Positions 28,859 through 38,300 of a stretch of 38,300 nt of DNA are shown here, one piece after another. The notes beneath the pieces were generated by a model. The model was not told the DNA's origin, ran no database searches, and saw nothing but the letters and a program-made list of their open reading frames with translations. The stretch spans positions 1 through 38,300 of the forward strand of contig NTJU01000003.1 of the NCBI GenBank assembly GCA_002457195.1, read 5' to 3'. This stretch comes from Marine Group II euryarchaeote MED-G33 (GTDB lineage Archaea; Thermoplasmatota; Poseidoniia; Poseidoniales; Thalassarchaeaceae). Each line of letters opens with the position of its first letter. Position 1 is the stretch's first letter. Position numbers and translations under genes: made by a program.

Positions 28859-31800
28859 ATGTTTCTGAAGGCTATCGAATTAGAGAATTTCAAGTCGTTC
28901 AAAGGGGAGGTGGTGATTCCGTACGAATTGGGTTTCACTGCGATTACTGGACCCAATGGTAGCGGAAAAAGCAACTGTGGGGATGCGATTCAATTCGTTC
29001 TTGGTCCCCGTAGCGCCAAGAGTCTACGAGCCCAGAATGTCAAGGATCTGATATTCAATGGTGGGAAGAAGGACAAGCCAGCCCGTTCTTGTACTGCAAC
29101 TTTGGTGTTTGACAACACCGCAGACGACTCGGGACAACGCCGTTTGCGTGTCGATGCAGACGAAGTACGCTTCACACGCACAGTCAAATTGAATCGTAAG
29201 AATGATTCAGTCACTGCTTACTATCTGAATGAACGAAGTTCAACCAGTACCGAATTCCGAAGAATACTCACTGAGGCCGGAGCCCGGGGGGATGGTTACA
29301 ACATCGTTCTCCAGGGTGACGTCACCCATTTGGCCACCATGACAACTCGGGATCGAAGAAAGGTCCTCGACGATGTCGCCGGTGTCACGGCCTATGATGA
29401 TGAAATTAAGCGCGCAGATCGGCAACGCAAGAAGGCCGAAGAATACCTTGAGCGCATATCCCTTCTTGAAGAGGAACTCAAGGATCGTCTCAAAACACTC
29501 AGCAAGGAACGCGAACAGGCGATGAAATATCGTAACTTAGCCGAAGCCCTAGACAATGCGCGTGTTACAGCCATCCACGCTCGCCACCGTTCGCGATTAA
29601 ATGAAATACAAATGATTGCAGATGAGCGGACAGGCTACATTACACGCATTGAAAATCTTACCAAATCAATCCAGGAAACTGGTTCTGAACTTCTCGATTT
29701 AGACGGTGAAATTGCCGATATTGAACGCCAACTCGATTCAGTTCTTGGTGATGATGGGAAGGCACTCGGCGAACGTCTGCGCAAACTGCAAGTCGATGTC
29801 GAAACCCGCAAAGACCGAATTTCAGACTCAGAAACTGCAATCGAGGATGCTGAAGATGAGAGCCAAGTACTTTCCAAGGAACAATCCAATGCTCAACAAG
29901 CCCTTGAGAACCACCAAGTCAGCCTCTCTGAGGCACAAGAGGCATTGGTCAAGGCCGATGCAGACATGGAATCAGCAGCCGAAGAAGAGAAAGCAGCGCG
30001 CGAAGCCATTTCAGGCGGGGATCGCGCAAACCATGACCTCAATCGTGCCTTCGGCAAAGCAACAGAAGCTGTGACCAAAGCTGACGAGTTACGTGTTACA
30101 GCATCCCTAGAGGCTGACCGATCACAAAATCAAGTGACAATGGCCGAAGAACGCCTCGCAGAATTGGAAGAGTCGCTCGCCGATGCTCGCCTTACTCGTG
30201 ATGACTTACAATTGGTTGGAGAGGATCTTCAAGGTGATAGTGGTGAAAATGATCGAAGCCAAATGGCTGAGGAATTGACTCGCCTACAACGTCAAGAACG
30301 AACACTCATGGAGCAAACCGAGGAAGTTGAGCGGAAAGTTCGCGAAGCAGAACGTTCCCTTGCCCGGGCTCAGGGTGAAATGGAAAATAAGTCAGGTTCC
30401 AAGGCTGGATTGGCCCAAGCAGTTTCCGCAGTCATGTCACTCAAAGATTCAGGACAGGTTCAGGGGATTCTGGGACCGCTTGGACAATTGTGTGAGCCCA
30501 AGGATACTGAGCACGAAGAGGCTCTTGCGTTCGCCCTGGGTGGCGGAATGAACAGTATCATTGTTCGTGACGATGAAACCGCAGCGACCTGTATCAAGTG
30601 GTTGCGAGACAACCGTGCCGGCCGGGCCACATTCCTACCACTGAACAAACTCACCGTTCGTCGACCAGGTGGGAAAGCAGTCATGACCGCTCGTCAGGAC
30701 GGTGTTGTAGGCTTTGCATTCAATCTACTAGAGTTTGATGAAACGATTGAATCAGCAGTCAAGCACGCTGTTCGAGACACACTCATTGTCCGAGACATGG
30801 GTACTGCAAGACGTCACATGGGTGGCGTACGAATGGTGACTCTGGATGGTAGTATTACAGAGGCAAGTGGGGCCATGGTCGGTGGTGCTGTACGAGGCCG
30901 CCGCCCCCAATTCGGTGGCAATATTGCTGGCATGAATGCAGTTCAGCAGGCTGAAACCGAAATCAGCCGATTGGAATTGCTTTCCGATACGGTCAACGCT
31001 GCTCTGGCTGAAGCACGTCAAAATCAACATCGTCTACGGGAGAAAATCAACAATCTTGGTGGTGACGATACAAGTCTCAAACTACGTGCGTGGCAAGAAG
31101 ATATGAAGCGAGCAAACACTGCCTTTGAATCGGCACAAGACAAGCTCAAGGTTTGCAACGCCCAACTTGTTGAAGCCAAGAATGTCTATCAGAAGTTACA
31201 GGATCGTGCTGATGCTGCAACAGAGGCTTACGACAATGCTGTCAATGAACGTCAGATTGCTTCCGACAGTTTACTTTCATCATCACCTGAACATCTTTCA
31301 GAACGCCTAAGGGCGAGCGATGAACTCCGTGTTGCTGCAATGCAAGCGAAGATTGACGCAGAATCTAAACTGGCAACAGGGAATGCGAATACGGAACTAT
31401 TGCAGCACAATGTCAATGAAATCGAGAGGCGTATTGCCGAGCAATCTTCAATCATCGAGAAGTCACAAGCACGTATCAGCGAACTCAATGCAGAAATTGA
31501 GACCTTGAATTCAGAACTCGAAACTGTTTCGGAGGCCCACGAACAAGTTGCTGAAGAACACCGGGAACTCAACGAGCGTTCCAAGTCACTACGTGAAGAT
31601 CGTGCTGGCATCAAAGCAACTCTTGAGCAAAATAGCAACACTCGTGAATCTCTCCGAACTCGTTGTGATGAACTATCTCAAGAAATTGAGAACAAACGCA
31701 GGCTACTTGAGGAGTTGACGCAGGAAATGTCAGCCCAGAATGTCGAACCACTGACTGAAGATATTGACTTGCCCAGCGTAGGGGATGCAGAGTCTAGTGT

Positions 31801-32830
31801 TCGAAATATCGAGCGTCGGATTTCAAATCTAGGCGATGTCAACATGATGGCGATCGAACAATATGATGAGGCTGAAGAACGTCTTGTCCGCATCACTGAT
31901 GATTCTAGCGTCCTAAGAAAGCGTCGTACAGACCTCATCCAACTCACTGAAAAGTTGGAGGGCGAACGCAAGTCCAGGTTGACCACTGTATTGGAAATAG
32001 TCTCTGAGAATTTCAAGCGAGTTTACAGTAGATTATCTGATGGTGGTAACGCTGAGTTGCGCCTTGAGAATCCAAAAGATCCCTTTACAGGTGGCCTTGA
32101 GATGTGGTGCCAACCGCGAGGCAAATCTAGCAAGAGCAAACTCAGTCTTCTCTCTGGTGGTGAGAAATCAATGGCGGCATTGGCTCTCATTTTCGCAATC
32201 CAAGATTACGACCCAAGTCCTTTCTATTACTTCGATGAAGTTGACCAGAACCTCGATGCATACAACGCAGAACATATCGCACGCCTTTGTCGTCTACGTA
32301 GCCAACGAGCTCAGTTCATCATGGTCACATTGCGCAAAGTCAGCCTACAACTTGCAGACCACCACATCGGAATCACTCATGCTGGCGATGGTTGCAGTCG
32401 TCGTATCACTGACTTTGACCGTGAACAGGCCATCGAACTCGGCGAGGCAGCTGAGGCAGAACTTGAAGCGGCCACAGCCACCCTGGAGAAGAAGGCGAAA
32501 CTGACCAAAGATCTCCCTGATCCTTCCAAGATGGAATCTGCACCCGAAGAATTGCCGACTCCAGCTAGTCTGGGTGGCTCATTATTGGATGCCGAAGACA
32601 GTGCAAGTGAAACTCCAGTCTCAGCCGAAGTGGGCCCTGAAATCGTTGAAAACGATGGGCCGGATATCACAATTTCTTCACTCGCTGATCGAGCCTCGGA
32701 TGAAAAAGAGGACATGGATGAACGCCTCGAATGGGAGCAAGCAGTGGATGCGAAAAAGGCTGAAGAAGAGGCAGGTTCCGAGCCAGTTGAGCAAATTACT
32801 GAAGTCCCTGAAGTAGAGGAACAGGAGTGA
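28859..32830 (+). CDS. smc: Chromosome segregation protein SMC
   Basis: 1323 aa; Walker A 'ITGPNGSGKSNCGDAIQFVLG', coiled coils, hinge 'VQGILGPLGQLCEPKDTEHEEALAFALGGGMNSIIVRD', signature 'KLSLLSGGEKSMAALALIFAI', Walker B 'PFYYFDEVDQNLDAYNA'. Confidence 0.97.
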   Translation: MFLKAIELENFKSFKGEVVIPYELGFTAITGPNGSGKSNCGDAIQFVLGPRSAKSLRAQNVKDLIFNGGKKDKPARSCTATLVFDNTADDSGQRRLRVDADEVRFTRTVKLNRKNDSVTAYYLNERSSTSTEFRRILTEAGARGDGYNIVLQGDVTHLATMTTRDRRKVLDDVAGVTAYDDEIKRADRQRKKAEEYLERISLLEEELKDRLKTLSKEREQAMKYRNLAEALDNARVTAIHARHRSRLNEIQMIADERTGYITRIENLTKSIQETGSELLDLDGEIADIERQLDSVLGDDGKALGERLRKLQVDVETRKDRISDSETAIEDAEDESQVLSKEQSNAQQALENHQVSLSEAQEALVKADADMESAAEEEKAAREAISGGDRANHDLNRAFGKATEAVTKADELRVTASLEADRSQNQVTMAEERLAELEESLADARLTRDDLQLVGEDLQGDSGENDRSQMAEELTRLQRQERTLMEQTEEVERKVREAERSLARAQGEMENKSGSKAGLAQAVSAVMSLKDSGQVQGILGPLGQLCEPKDTEHEEALAFALGGGMNSIIVRDDETAATCIKWLRDNRAGRATFLPLNKLTVRRPGGKAVMTARQDGVVGFAFNLLEFDETIESAVKHAVRDTLIVRDMGTARRHMGGVRMVTLDGSITEASGAMVGGAVRGRRPQFGGNIAGMNAVQQAETEISRLELLSDTVNAALAEARQNQHRLREKINNLGGDDTSLKLRAWQEDMKRANTAFESAQDKLKVCNAQLVEAKNVYQKLQDRADAATEAYDNAVNERQIASDSLLSSSPEHLSERLRASDELRVAAMQAKIDAESKLATGNANTELLQHNVNEIERRIAEQSSIIEKSQARISELNAEIETLNSELETVSEAHEQVAEEHRELNERSKSLREDRAGIKATLEQNSNTRESLRTRCDELSQEIENKRRLLEELTQEMSAQNVEPLTEDIDLPSVGDAESSVRNIERRISNLGDVNMMAIEQYDEAEERLVRITDDSSVLRKRRTDLIQLTEKLEGERKSRLTTVLEIVSENFKRVYSRLSDGGNAELRLENPKDPFTGGLEMWCQPRGKSSKSKLSLLSGGEKSMAALALIFAIQDYDPSPFYYFDEVDQNLDAYNAEHIARLCRLRSQRAQFIMVTLRKVSLQLADHHIGITHAGDGCSRRITDFDREQAIELGEAAEAELEAATATLEKKAKLTKDLPDPSKMESAPEELPTPASLGGSLLDAEDSASETPVSAEVGPEIVENDGPDITISSLADRASDEKEDMDERLEWEQAVDAKKAEEEAGSEPVEQITEVPEVEEQE

Positions 32831-32835
32831 TTTCG

Positions 32836-33846
32836 ATGTCTCTACTTGAGACCCGTGACATGCAAGCGACGATTGTCAAACAGTTGCTTGGTGAACAAGA
32901 TGATGCAAATCTCGACAAGCATCGATATATCGATCGTTTGATTGAAATTGCGGATTTAGAAAGCGCAGAACATCAGAGCCTAGCCGACCCATTTGATCGA
33001 TCTGTCGCACTCGTTTTCCAGATGTTTAACGATGCAAGTTTGGATCCGTGGGATGTTGATTTGAGTGTTTTCATCGAACAGTTCAATCTCCGTACAAAGG
33101 ATACAGAAAATATCGACCTCCCAACCTGTGGGCGCCTAATACGAATGGCTTGGAAAGTATTGCATGGTCAAGCATCTACACTACTCGATCGCGCAGAGCG
33201 TGCTGAAGAAGAATGGGAGGATGACCCTTGGGCCCTGGAAGGTTGGCAAACCGAATTTGAGGATGAAGAATACAATTTCAGTGTAGGGATTATTACTGGA
33301 CAAACCACTGATGTGTTGCCCAATCTTCTCGATGGACGGGTAAAACGTGAGGAAGGTCGCCCCGTTACCCTTACTGAATTGTTGATGTCTCTACAGGGAG
33401 CACATCAAGAGGTTGAAGAACGCCGGATTCGCGAAGAGAGCCGGATTAAACATGCAGCCGAAGTCAGTGATTGGATGTCAAATGTGACGACTCGGATGCA
33501 CAAGGAAGACCTTGAGGATGATATTCGGCGATGCTGGGAGGCGATTCGGGCTGCCAGTCCAGATGGTGCCCCCGTCACTCTGGAACAAGTCGCAGAAAAA
33601 CTAGCTGAGCATTCTGCTGCAGAAGGATGGACTTTGAAGGAGGCCGAGGAAGAAGGCCAGGTAACGGGTTTTGTTTCTGCATTATTCCTCACGCACCGGG
33701 GTTACACTGATTTGTGGCAAATGGAATACCCTAGTGGAGATATTTTCTTACAGGACAAATGGCCGAAATACGATGATTTTTCAGCCATATCTACAGAGAT
33801 CGGTATCGGGCCACGCCAAGCAGATAGAGGTGATGATTCTGAGTGA
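32836..33846 (+). CDS. scpA: Segregation and condensation protein A (kleisin)
   Basis: ORF track 32827..33846; start at ATG 32836 is more likely (MSLLETRDMQ). 'DPFDRSVALVFQMFNDASLDPWDVDLSVFIEQF' is ScpA-like. Between smc and scpB. Confidence 0.88.
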   Translation: MSLLETRDMQATIVKQLLGEQDDANLDKHRYIDRLIEIADLESAEHQSLADPFDRSVALVFQMFNDASLDPWDVDLSVFIEQFNLRTKDTENIDLPTCGRLIRMAWKVLHGQASTLLDRAERAEEEWEDDPWALEGWQTEFEDEEYNFSVGIITGQTTDVLPNLLDGRVKREEGRPVTLTELLMSLQGAHQEVEERRIREESRIKHAAEVSDWMSNVTTRMHKEDLEDDIRRCWEAIRAASPDGAPVTLEQVAEKLAEHSAAEGWTLKEAEEEGQVTGFVSALFLTHRGYTDLWQMEYPSGDIFLQDKWPKYDDFSAISTEIGIGPRQADRGDDSE

Positions 33847-34480
33847 CGTAGATCTACGCACCTTGCTAGAAGCAACCTTGTTCGGGGCCGGCCGTTCTCT
33901 TTCTGTTGAAGAGCTTGCAGAATCACTACAGCAAACTCCGGGTGAGATTGTTGCACATCTCGAGTCGTTACAGCACACAATGAAACGTCGACCAGGGGGG
34001 GCTCTCCAACTGACCAGCGTCAGTGGAAGATGGGTTATGGAAGTGAAACCAAAATTGGCCAACCACATTCCATCGTCATTCAGAACTGAGATTCCTCAGC
34101 GCTTGTTAGCTGCTGCAGCGCTGATTGCATATCATCAACCAATGGCACAGAGCCAACTGGTCGAAATGATTGGACAACGCGCCTATGATCATGTTCGTGA
34201 CCTCGCTCATCTTGGTTTGATTGATCGTCGGCGTGATGGACTCTCAAGGCGCTTGACAACAACTCGCCGTTTCGCGGAGATGTTCGGTTGCCCATTTGCT
34301 GAATCGAAAAAAGTGCGTAAGTGGTTCAGGGAACATGCTGCCAAAATGGGCATGGATGGTGCTGAACTGGCCGCGAGTCTAGGGGACGGAGATGGTGAGA
34401 TTCAAGATGCACCTGAAGTCCCTGTCGGTGAAGACTGGGATGAGTCCAGCGCTGAAGTCATAGGTGACGAGGAAGAGTGA
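33833..34480 (+). CDS. scpB: Segregation and condensation protein B
   Basis: Frame of ORF 33671..34480 trimmed to ATG 33833 (MILSDVDLRTLLEATLFGAGRSLSVEELAESLQ...). 'RLLAAAALIAYHQPMAQSQLVEMIGQRAYDHVRDLAHLGLIDRRRDG' is ScpB-like. Overlaps the end of scpA. Confidence 0.88.
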   Translation: MILSDVDLRTLLEATLFGAGRSLSVEELAESLQQTPGEIVAHLESLQHTMKRRPGGALQLTSVSGRWVMEVKPKLANHIPSSFRTEIPQRLLAAAALIAYHQPMAQSQLVEMIGQRAYDHVRDLAHLGLIDRRRDGLSRRLTTTRRFAEMFGCPFAESKKVRKWFREHAAKMGMDGAELAASLGDGDGEIQDAPEVPVGEDWDESSAEVIGDEEE

Positions 34481-35773
34481 TCATCCTCGAAGCTCATTCA
34501 GTGCGTTTTCAATCGCTGCTGCTGTGATTCTTTCGCCACTTGCCCGAATCATATCGACTACAACATCGACTTCATGATCCTCTGCACCTGCTGTAACGGC
34601 CATATTCCTCGCATGTAATTTCATGTGACCTGCTTGGATTCCAACGGTGGCGAGGGCGCGTAGAGCACCCAGATTCTGGGCCAGCCCTGCTGCTGCCATC
34701 ACCTTGGATAGGTCATCGGCAGTCCTGGCACCCATGATGGCGACATTTGCCTTGGCGACAGGATGTACGCGCACAGCGCCGCCAACGAGACCAACGGGCA
34801 TTGGTAATTCAATCGAACCAACCAAGTTTCCATCCGCATCCTTTTCCCAATGTGTCAGGGAACCGTATGTTCGTCCATATGATGCATAGGAATGCGCTCC
34901 AGATTCGATAGCACGCCAATCTTGTCCACAGGCGACTCCAATCGGTGAAATCGCATTCATGATGCCCTTGTTGTGGGTTGTAGCTCTAAATGGGTCTGCT
35001 GCGGCAAAGTGGTATGCTTGTAGAATCCCTTCGATGACTTCTGCGCCTTGGGCAGCATCACCTGCATTTGACATTTCTACAGGGGTGAAAGTAGCACTAA
35101 CGCGGGCCAAACGGTGTATGGCCAAATTACTGATGATACGGAGAATGACAGTACCTCCGGAAATCGCTTCGACACGCGGTGCAATCGTTTCTGCCATCGT
35201 ATTGACTGCATTGGCACCCATGGCATCCTGACAATCGACCAGAATATGGACGATCACCATTGGGCCGGATTCTGTATCGATTACTCTTGCCTCAAGATCT
35301 CGACACCCGCCTCCAAATTTGACGAGAATTGGGTCAACCTCATTACAGGCCTCAATCAAACCGTCTTTTGCTTCAAGGATGGCTGATTTGGCTGCAAAAA
35401 CATCTTCACACCCTACGACTTGAATCTGACCAATCATGATTGGGTCTGTATTGTTGGACACAAAGCCCCCTTTTGCATGACATCGCTTGGCCATATTACT
35501 GGCTGCAGCAACCACTGATGGTTCTTCAAGGGCGAAGGGTACGATATAGTGCTCATCATCGATAATGAAATTCGTTGCAACGCCTACAGGGAGTGCCAAT
35601 GTACCGATGACATTCTCAATGATCCGATCTGCAGCAGATTCTGACAATTCTCCTGTTGCGGCAAGCGCATCGATAGCCTCTTGATCCAATCCGGCCAATT
35701 CTGCAACCTTCTCTCTTCGCTCTTTGACACTTAATTTGAAAAATCCCTTCAGACGGCTGTTCTCAACAGGCAT
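34481..35773 (-). CDS. Hydroxymethylglutaryl-CoA reductase, class II (bacterial/degradative type)
   Basis: 430 aa; 'SRLKGFFKLSVKERREKVAELAGL', 'ALPVGVATNFIIDDEHYIVPFALEEPSVVAAASNMAKR', 'DAMGANAVNTMAE', 'HNKGIMNAISPIGVACGQDWRAIE' as in class II HMGR. Confidence 0.93.
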   Translation of the reverse strand: MPVENSRLKGFFKLSVKERREKVAELAGLDQEAIDALAATGELSESAADRIIENVIGTLALPVGVATNFIIDDEHYIVPFALEEPSVVAAASNMAKRCHAKGGFVSNNTDPIMIGQIQVVGCEDVFAAKSAILEAKDGLIEACNEVDPILVKFGGGCRDLEARVIDTESGPMVIVHILVDCQDAMGANAVNTMAETIAPRVEAISGGTVILRIISNLAIHRLARVSATFTPVEMSNAGDAAQGAEVIEGILQAYHFAAADPFRATTHNKGIMNAISPIGVACGQDWRAIESGAHSYASYGRTYGSLTHWEKDADGNLVGSIELPMPVGLVGGAVRVHPVAKANVAIMGARTADDLSKVMAAAGLAQNLGALRALATVGIQAGHMKLHARNMAVTAGAEDHEVDVVVDMIRASGERITAAAIENALNELRG

Positions 35774-35879: not shown

Positions 35880-35941
35880 ATGCGTTAACAAAGCGTTACT
35901 AACGCTTTACATGCGTTAACAAAGCGTTAATAATGCGTTAA
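35880..35941. repeat. Iteron-like cluster: two 19-bp direct repeats ATGCGTTAACAAAGCGTTA plus partial and inverted copies
   Basis: Copy 1 at 35880..35898, copy 2 at 35911..35929, partial ATGCGTTAA at 35933..35941. Inverted repeat AAGCGTTA-C-TAACGCTT at 35891..35907. GCGTTA cores at 35882, 35893, 35913, 35924, 35935. A further GCGTTAAC is at 36042. Confidence 0.9.
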
Positions 35942-36081
35942 TTGGAAATATTTAACCCAATAAAAAGAACATAAATACGCTATGATGGCATTCGGTTCAC
36001 TCTTCAACGCTTTGAAACAGGATTCTCCATGTGTTAGATTCGCGTTAACTTGTTAAACCCAACCGAAGTTCGCGGCCATAG

Positions 36082-37755
36082 ATGTCGAATAGTGTGACGA
36101 ATGCTTTGCACCTACCTCATATGCGTGCAAACCCCTTCTCGCCAAAGCCGATTGAGGCCAACGACTACGCATTGTTGGTCGGACGAAGTGAGTTAATGTC
36201 TGATTTGAGACAGCACCTGCGCTTTGGCAGCCCTCGCCTGATGGTATTGCTTGGAGATCGCGGCTCGGGACGAACCTCTATTTTGCAGTCATTAAGCAAC
36301 CTTTCACCGAATCCGTATCGATTCTCCTACTATCCAGGGGAGAATCCCAGCAAAAGCCTCCTGCATGAGATGTTTTGCCTTATCGTGGGGCATGATGTCC
36401 CTCCTTCGACAAATACATTGGTTGAGGAAATGGTCGCAACGTTAGAGGGGAAAAGTGGGGATTTACCGTTGATCACCTTCGATTTCCCAGGGGTTGCAGG
36501 GGCTGATTTAGCCCAAGTTTTTGAAAGATTAACTCCTGTTTTGAATCGTTTGAGGGCGTTGGTCATCGTGGCCCTTACGCCAGCACAATTGGGCACATGG
36601 CCTGATGATTTACAATATGAGTATGATATCACTGAACCATTGGCAGATTTCGACTCTTCAACCATACGTTCTCTAATCGACAAGCGAATCAGCCAAGTCA
36701 GTAACGAGGGGTGGATTGCACCCCAGTCTCTGATTGAAGACGCAATCGCGCATACAGGAGGGCGCGCAACCCCAATCATCCGCCACCTCAGGGATCTAAT
36801 CGATTCACAACGAGGTGCATCTACAACATTCTCTCGTAAACAGCAAATGATTGAATCCATGGAATTAGAGCCAAATGACGCTAAGAAACGAATGGCTCCT
36901 CAAGTAGAGCCTCTGGAACCCTTGGATGACGCTAAAGAAGATTTGACAGATGAATCTGCACCCGAATCTGAATCACAACCAGATGTGGAGACCGATTTCA
37001 ATTGGGATTTGCCTGAACCGAAACTTGAGGTCGAGGAAGAATTCCCTGAGGAACCAATGGATCCATCATTTGAACCGGTGGAAGACACCCCCTCAGAATT
37101 TGAATTTCCATCCATGGAGATCGACGAAACAGATGAACCAGACATGTCCCAGGCACTGGGTGGCGCGATTCTTGAGATGGAACCAGGGACTGAACCACCC
37201 CCTCCAATGCATGCGTTTGGAGGTCTCGCTACTCGTCAACGTACGGCCAAGGTGGAAATTGGCTTGGACAATGCTCTCGCACCAAAGGCCAGTGGGCCAT
37301 TGACGGCAAAACCAGATAAAAGCATGAATTTCGCTCCCGAAGAGCCTCAAATCGAATCTGACGAAACCACTTACTGGGTCGCTGAAACTCTCCCTGAACC
37401 CGCCCCTCAAGCTCCCCCTGTTATGGACCCCATGGCTGCCAAATCGATTGGGGACAATCTTCGCAAGTCACAGCCCAAACCAACTGGCTCCACTTTGCCG
37501 TTAGACTTCGAGAAGGTATCGTCTCTCAATGATTCTGAAATCATCATTGTCGAGGCATCGATTGCACGAGAGGTCTCACCTTCAGATTCTGCCTTACAAG
37601 CCCACCTTGCAGTGGGTCGGCCACGATTATCACAAATATTCAATGGATTGCATAAATCTGGAATACTGTCTGTCCGGAAAAAGGGTAGGACCCGCTTATT
37701 CCGAATATCCGATCAAGCAAAAGCCCATCTTGCAGATGGCCACATGGAGGCGTAA
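36082..37755 (+). CDS. AAA-like ATPase-fold protein with degenerate Walker motifs, acidic/proline-rich linker and C-terminal winged-helix domain
   Basis: 557 aa; N-terminal 'RANPFSPKPIEANDYALLVGRSELMSDLRQHLRFGSPRLMVLLGDRGSGRTSILQSL' (AAA-like with K-to-R in Walker A), 'LPLITFDFPGVAGADLAQVFERL', E/P-rich middle, and C-terminal 'DSALQAHLAVGRPRLSQIFNGLHKSGILSVRKKGRTRLFRISDQAKAHL' (wHTH). Confidence 0.7.
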   Translation: MSNSVTNALHLPHMRANPFSPKPIEANDYALLVGRSELMSDLRQHLRFGSPRLMVLLGDRGSGRTSILQSLSNLSPNPYRFSYYPGENPSKSLLHEMFCLIVGHDVPPSTNTLVEEMVATLEGKSGDLPLITFDFPGVAGADLAQVFERLTPVLNRLRALVIVALTPAQLGTWPDDLQYEYDITEPLADFDSSTIRSLIDKRISQVSNEGWIAPQSLIEDAIAHTGGRATPIIRHLRDLIDSQRGASTTFSRKQQMIESMELEPNDAKKRMAPQVEPLEPLDDAKEDLTDESAPESESQPDVETDFNWDLPEPKLEVEEEFPEEPMDPSFEPVEDTPSEFEFPSMEIDETDEPDMSQALGGAILEMEPGTEPPPPMHAFGGLATRQRTAKVEIGLDNALAPKASGPLTAKPDKSMNFAPEEPQIESDETTYWVAETLPEPAPQAPPVMDPMAAKSIGDNLRKSQPKPTGSTLPLDFEKVSSLNDSEIIIVEASIAREVSPSDSALQAHLAVGRPRLSQIFNGLHKSGILSVRKKGRTRLFRISDQAKAHLADGHMEA

Positions 37756-37757
37756 TC

Positions 37758-38300
37758 ATGTCGGATGAGCGCTGGGAAATTGCTTGGAGTCACCAAGTCG
37801 AAGGCCGTGTTGGCGCTCTTTCGTGCTTGGGTGAAGATTGTTTAATTGCAGCAGGGAGTGTTGTTCGTCGCCTCAATTCGGATGGTGATTTCCTATGGCG
37901 GCGTGAGTTCTCATTTGATGTCTACAGGTTGGAGCACGATGGTACAAATGTTGCAGTATTATCTGGTACTGGATTTTTCTTGCTAGATTTGGCCACTGGA
38001 GAGCCGATTGGAGAAGGCCGAGCGGTTGCGGGTGGATTTCGGGATGTTGTGCGCCGCCCAGGAGGGGGTTGGTTACTTTCCGATCGCGGTGACCACATTC
38101 ACCTGTTCAATCGTCGTGGCCGGGGCATTCGACGGCTTCGACCAGGCCCATTGAAGAAAATGGTTGGTTGGCTTGATCGAGAAATATTACTCGCGCAGGA
38201 TGCCGATGGTTGTTTGCGAGCCTTGCGATTGGGTGGCGACGATGCTCAACGCCAAATCGAAACGACACGTTGGTCTTGGGTCTCTAAATTGCACAGCGGG
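37758..38300 (+). CDS. Beta-propeller-like (WD40/PQQ-like repeat) protein, truncated by the window end
   Basis: Manual translation from ATG 37758: MSDERWEIAWSHQVEGRVGALSCLGEDCLIAAGSVVRRLNSDGDFLWRREFSFDVYRLEHDGTNVAVLSGTGFFLLDLATGEPIGEGRAV... is open to the window end. Repeating 'G..V..L...G..LW' strands. Confidence 0.7.
   Translation, partial: MSDERWEIAWSHQVEGRVGALSCLGEDCLIAAGSVVRRLNSDGDFLWRREFSFDVYRLEHDGTNVAVLSGTGFFLLDLATGEPIGEGRAVAGGFRDVVRRPGGGWLLSDRGDHIHLFNRRGRGIRRLRPGPLKKMVGWLDREILLAQDADGCLRALRLGGDDAQRQIETTRWSWVSKLHSG

Follow-up and report, generated by a model that had tools for sequence, protein, structure and literature searches.

An Orc1/Cdc6-like AAA+ protein of Marine Group II archaea with degenerate Walker motifs, an ArsR-type winged helix, and a candidate autoregulatory iteron operator

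Results

Overview of the AAAwH locus

Comparative analysis of a 38.3-kb stretch of DNA (the window) and of related genomes led us to a protein, here called AAAwH, that we give an even chance of being a non-initiator, hydrolysis-defective Orc1/Cdc6-like DNA-binding switch, with cooperative assembly on an iteron operator of its own. The window comes from a Marine Group II archaeon of Candidatus Thalassarchaeaceae; Marine Group II is an uncultured group that is abundant in surface waters of the ocean. AAAwH is a nearly universal, order-specific putative DNA-binding protein without a curated family above cut-off. It combines an initiator-like AAA+ core lacking catalytic residues with a foreign DNA-reading head, and its probable target site is defined to the base. 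The protein offers a test case for an Orc-like machine operating without ATP hydrolysis and for how initiators become regulators. The literature searched contained no report on the AAAwH family or on Poseidoniales origins. The features of the locus are listed in Table 1.

Table 1. Positions of the AAAwH gene, its domains and motifs, and neighboring elements in the window
Feature	Position	Strand	Evidence
SMC-ScpA-ScpB cluster	28859..34480	+	
HMG-CoA reductase (HMGR), divergent neighbor	34481..35773	-	Pfam PF00368; synteny
Distal iteron array: GCGTTA at 35882, 35893, 35913, 35924, 35935 (+) and 35900 (-); 11-bp spacing	35882..35940	.	
Proximal operator-like sites GTGTTA-N5-GCGTTA, beside TATA-like TTAAAC ~25 bp before ATG	36031..36047	+	Sequence; positionally conserved degenerate ortholog sites
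AAAwH gene, Orc-like AAA+/wHTH	36082..37755	+	ORF, 557 aa, ATG start
AAA+ domain, residues ~30-243	36169..36810	+	AF2 pLDDT 90.5; 2qby_A best PDB match; hhalign
Walker A GDRGSGRTS, G58 to S66, Arg64 replacing invariant Lys	36253..36279	+	Arg in 67/68 orthologs
Walker B-like strand LITFDF: D134 present, catalytic Glu missing	36469..36486	+	Ortholog alignment
Sensor-2-like helix GGRATPIIRHLRDLID	36757..36804	+	G227, R237, D241 (near-)invariant; aligns with Orc1 GDARxALDLLR
Acidic, Pro-rich linker, residues 263-468	36868..37485	+	Composition
C-terminal ArsR/SmtB-like winged helix	37486..37752	+	AF2 pLDDT 92.5; ArsR-family PDB matches; 13 invariant positions/57 orthologs
Putative recognition helix RPRLSQIFNGLHK of the wHTH	37618-37656	+	
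Propeller-like (by appearance) downstream gene, incomplete at window end	37758..38300	+	

AAAwH joins an Orc1/Cdc6-like AAA+ domain to an ArsR-type winged helix

The original prediction, made from the sequence of the window alone, described an AAA-like protein resembling Orc1/Cdc6 or ExeA-type proteins, with structure prediction as the check on its fold. The AlphaFold2 (AF2) model contained a confident AAA+ domain that was closest to Orc1/Cdc6. Its best PDB match in a Foldseek search was Sulfolobus Orc1/Cdc6 (2qby_A, E 1.2e-6), and further matches included ORC subunits (7jpp_E), A. pernix Orc1 (2v1u_A), clamp loaders, MuB, and TnsC; the TM-scores of ~0.55-0.6 indicate the same fold at a large distance. 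When AAAwH was aligned using hhalign with the Orc1/Cdc6 families of the same genomes, 222 columns were colinear (P 5e-7), with R64 of AAAwH placed opposite the Orc1/Cdc6 Lys and GGxPxxVxRxLR opposite GDARxALDLLR. Foldseek and hhalign thus upheld the Orc1/Cdc6 half of the proposed likeness, whereas an ExeA/TniB affinity was not favored over it. A PDB sequence search with the AAA profile returned generic P-loop matches only, mostly short or low-complexity.

The remaining parts of the predicted layout, an acidic and proline-rich linker of about 200 residues and a MarR/ArsR-like wHTH at the C terminus, were both recovered. The linker contains 33 Pro, 50 Asp+Glu, and 15 Lys+Arg residues and is presumably disordered. 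The C-terminal domain (residues ~475-550; mean pLDDT 92.5) matched structures of ArsR/SmtB regulators, and its profile showed no relationship to the Orc1 winged helix, the hhalign probabilities against Orc1/Cdc6 profiles being 0.4-2.7%. Among curated families, no Pfam model scored above its cut-off for AAAwH; the STAND NTPase models AAA_16 (24.3 of 32.6 bits) and nSTAND1 (17.9 of 27.1 bits) stayed below theirs, and an NCBIfam scan at E<=0.1 gave no Orc model among its matches. Judged by its sequence, AAAwH is not an Orc1/Cdc6 by membership, since the Walker motifs, the type of winged helix, and the family models all speak against it; nor is it an ArsR regulator by membership.

The degenerate nucleotide-binding motifs are conserved across the order

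AAAwH was found in 58 of the 59 genomes of the order Poseidoniales (Marine Group II) and in 181 of the 195 genomes of the class. The 21 genomes of Marine Group III, as which we took the third family of the class from its position within the class, had no real match, yielding either borderline hits (E ~1e-4 to 1e-3) or none.

An alignment of the orthologs was used to ask whether they carry canonical GK[ST] and DE motifs; they do not, and the degenerate reading stands. The Arg that had been noticed in place of the P-loop Lys (codon CGA, 36271-36273) was kept in all but one of 68 orthologs and in 46 of 48 in an overlapping set, with Lys in the few others. The Walker B-like strand had been read as LITFDFPG rather than DE. 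This was correct for the catalytic Glu, as position 135 was never acidic (D/E) among the 68 orthologs and held Y, F, L, H, A, or V instead, but not for the Asp: D134 (36481-36483, within LITFDFPG) is retained and invariant in all 68. Also invariant were G58, G61, G63, S66, and G227, with R237 and D241 nearly so. Rare orthologs (L188, L031 in genome G018, and L048 in genome G039) have a canonical Walker A Lys and still lack the Walker B Glu.

Since Arg64 and the missing Glu are conserved across orthologs, the degeneracy is a long-kept feature rather than decay. The P-loop is otherwise perfect, which suggests that it still holds nucleotide, and from the motifs we infer that AAAwH is hydrolysis-dead (ATPase-dead). 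The most conserved part of the protein was the wHTH, with the motif VGRPRLSQIxNxLxKxGILSVRKxGRxR.

A GCGTTA iteron array accompanies AAAwH

Six GCGTTA/TAACGC hexamers lie within 35882-35940, upstream of the AAAwH gene, and another lies at 36042-36047. The pair GCGTTA-N5-GCGTTA, allowing <=2 mismatches, occurred seven times in the window against 1.0 expected, mostly inside the distal array, and none of 100 shuffles reached seven. Similar GCGTTA arrays were present upstream of practically every AAAwH ortholog in both families, with three to seven hexamers at most loci and one at a few loci with ACGTTA variants; the arrangement seen most often was direct repeats with 11-bp spacing (68 + 33 cases). 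The exact pair was present in 40 of 59 genomes, nearly always at the AAAwH locus, and a triple-iteron pattern (<=1 mismatch) was present in 41 of 59, with essentially all matches at that locus. The pattern was missing in all 21 Marine Group III genomes, as well as in three genomes of the order in which AAAwH was not, or hardly, found.

The protein had been proposed as a candidate cognate factor for the iterons, and this link was supported by order-wide phylogenetic footprinting, genomic near-uniqueness, fixed spacing to the AAAwH gene, and co-absence from Marine Group III. From this sequence evidence, AAAwH probably binds the GCGTTA iterons via its wHTH. Another wHTH protein could be the reader of the array, for instance the product of an MreA-like gene found nearby in some genomes. 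This small, Lrs14-related HTH gene lies beside the PIN/eIF2-gamma/S6e/Cdc6 cluster in some genera, at L033:6885-7289 and at corresponding places in several genomes. No clean covariation was seen between the first iteron base and wHTH residues: in the clade L160, L162, L165, and L170, the array has largely changed from GCGTTA to ACGTTA and the wHTH wing reads LKVRKEG, and the related group L171-L173 retains GCGTTA. A search of the repeat region against Rfam gave no match, and an RNA element was rejected on this basis. At a contig end (G044:C37:1-270), the locus recurs as a second, short piece comprising a gene start and an array, which is perhaps contamination or a strain variant.

Array geometry ties the iterons to AAAwH rather than to HMGR

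Throughout one family, the last distal site mostly lay 188-191 bp, or 11 bp more, from the AAAwH NPF codon; in the other family, several members had a distance of 151-153 bp. Conversely, the distance from the HMGR ATG to the array showed no fixed phase, varying between 37 and 231 bp. Because the former distance is nearly constant and the latter is free, the array is tied to AAAwH, not HMGR. This bears on the idea that AAAwH is a dedicated regulator of HMGR, and hence of membrane lipid synthesis, through a shared intergenic array. HMGR was divergent from AAAwH at each of the 75 loci that allowed its placement, and the array sits between both starts, as such a regulator would have it; given the unphased spacing, we nevertheless hold it to be quite unlikely and reject an HMGR operator as the main role of the array.

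Closer to the gene, degenerate sites of the form CGT[TGA]A recur in orthologs at constant offsets from the NPF codon (-117, -95, and -85). Neighboring sites are separated by 10 and 22 bp, which is why an 11-bp pair test of the proximal region passed in only 1 of 76 cases. Adjoining them is an AT-rich stretch some 30 bp ahead of the start codon, which would represent the core promoter. As read from their sequence, array and proximal sites together are arranged as a cooperative autoregulatory operator would be.

A model for AAAwH and its relation to known systems

In the proposed switch, the Arg-containing P-loop would retain nucleotide without hydrolyzing it, so the AAA+ domains may serve as an oligomerization scaffold. 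The wHTH units would occupy GCGTTA half-sites one helical turn (11 bp) apart, loading AAAwH cooperatively onto the distal array; the assembly would then reach the weaker proximal promoter sites and repress or set its own transcription. A purely self-controlling protein would be odd, so AAAwH must have a further function, which the model does not name; the complex might, for example, act in tethering or in replication control via the nearby Orc1/Cdc6 paralog at its single chromosomal place.

AAAwH resembles the archaeal Orc1/Cdc6 proteins of S. solfataricus (2qby) and A. pernix (2v1u) in its AAA+ core, LVGR-like entry motif, sensor-2 layout, C-terminal winged helix, and repeats upstream of the gene. 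It differs from them in having Arg for the Walker A Lys, no Walker B Glu, an ArsR-like wHTH unrelated by profile to that of Orc1, an acidic linker of ~200 aa, and a locus without a skew switch (see below). Among working systems, Saccharolobus Orc1-2 comes closest; in it, an Orc-like AAA+ domain plus winged helix acts as a regulator. This non-initiator Orc1 paralog is a DNA-damage regulator and recognizes a hexanucleotide within the promoter of its own gene. DNA binding is poor in its Walker A mutant, whereas its Walker B mutant, which cannot hydrolyze ATP, binds DNA as well as or better than the wildtype protein (PMC9738581). AAAwH looks as if the non-hydrolyzing state had become fixed in nature, with a different DNA-reading head. 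Orc1-2, however, has intact Walker motifs, an ISM, an Orc-type winged helix, and a regulon, whereas the motifs of AAAwH are degenerate and its target is apparently one locus.

The C-terminal wHTH shares its fold with the ArsR/SmtB repressors HlyU, BigR, and CzrA, but it is fused to an AAA+ domain instead of standing alone, and the NCBIfam metalloregulator model NF033788 scored 20.3 of 55 bits. The DNA filament proteins MuB and TnsC have AAA+ domains of similar size and fold that were among the PDB matches of AAAwH (8xvb, 7plh); AAAwH differs in lacking a transposase context and in its degenerate Walker motifs.

Neighboring genes as leads to a wider function

Two neighbors, SMC-ScpAB and a second Orc1/Cdc6 gene, provide leads only for a wider function of AAAwH. 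The SMC-ScpA-ScpB genes lie directly beside the locus in many genera, and this adjacency is broken in several. Together with the single array per genome and its helical phasing, a kind of repeat known from partition sites, it recommends a centromere-like or anchoring locus, at which AAAwH would spread on the array and engage SMC-ScpAB to organize or segregate the chromosome. Such a role seems very unlikely, as SMC-ScpAB is outside the retrieved flank in several genera that still have the array and AAAwH, no ParA-like partner was seen in the cluster, and AAAwH lacks hydrolysis residues. The propeller-like gene is probably co-transcribed with AAAwH, and it was not found in many genera.

The second Orc1/Cdc6 gene (200-250 bits) lies ~4-6 kb downstream of AAAwH in most genomes, and genuine Orc1/Cdc6 genes also occur elsewhere in genomes with AAAwH. 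The linkage is kept even where the eIF2-gamma/S6e/Cdc6 cluster is inverted, as observed at L133-L135, L139, L169, L174, L179, and L185. In a broader reading, which we regard as possible but doubtful, the natural, hydrolysis-dead Orc1/Cdc6-like protein, its winged helix exchanged for one of ArsR type, would form with its single array a locus-specific chromosomal complex for replication control, anchoring, or segregation, an innovation that Marine Group II archaea share.

Nucleotide skew does not place a main replication origin at the iterons

Archaeal origins typically consist of repeats upstream of an initiator gene (PMC4010727), and replicator-initiator pairs such as oriC-cdc6 and oriC3-whiP are known. 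Because of this layout and the second Orc1/Cdc6 gene nearby, we tested fork direction using the TA skew at fourfold sites, corrected for gene strand, in one single-contig genome (G036; 80 windows of 20 kb, covering ~78% of the genome) and in five more genomes around the locus. G036 displayed one sharp switch, near 1.235 Mb, with a step of 0.14. Its iterons, at 0.695 Mb, are 0.54 Mb from this switch, and its main orc1 gene, at 1.83 Mb, is also off it. Within 110 kb of the AAAwH locus, no replichore switch was seen in the six genomes, the TA steps being -0.04 to +0.014 (SE ~0.02). The skew retained one sign across the locus, and in five of the six genomes it was oriented alike with respect to the gene, so that forks seemingly run through the locus, which seems to lie inside a replichore.

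These data weigh on the reading of the iteron region as a replicator, in the form of a secondary or dormant origin for which AAAwH would be the cognate initiator, perhaps jointly with the Orc1/Cdc6 paralog ~5 kb away. Repeats directly upstream of an Orc-like winged-helix gene are the typical archaeal layout (PMC4010727); the iterons are near-unique per genome, the array-to-AAAwH geometry is nearly fixed, the Orc1/Cdc6 linkage survives cluster inversion, and a lost, dormant, or rarely used origin would escape a skew test. A minor origin might exist, as the GC step at fourfold sites (GC4) was weakly positive at the locus, in G036 only (+0.061, SE 0.026), and the number of genomes was small. Against a replicator stands the contrast between the steps at the locus and the 0.14 at the G036 switch. 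ORBs are diverse; a search with one ORB consensus gave 25 matches at <=3 mismatches against 21.4 expected, with no enrichment and none in the intergenic region. We consider this reading unlikely and reject a dominant replication origin at the iterons, since no skew switch was present there in six genomes despite an Orc1/Cdc6 gene ~5 kb away. In its behavior, the iteron array fits an element of self-control and not a main replication origin.

The sharp switch of G036 (contig C1, 1.2327-1.2367 Mb; L239) represents either an origin or a sharp terminus. It lies among ordinary genes, which by appearance encode transketolase halves, an OPT-type transporter, and a P-type ATPase, without intergenic repeats or a nearby cdc6.
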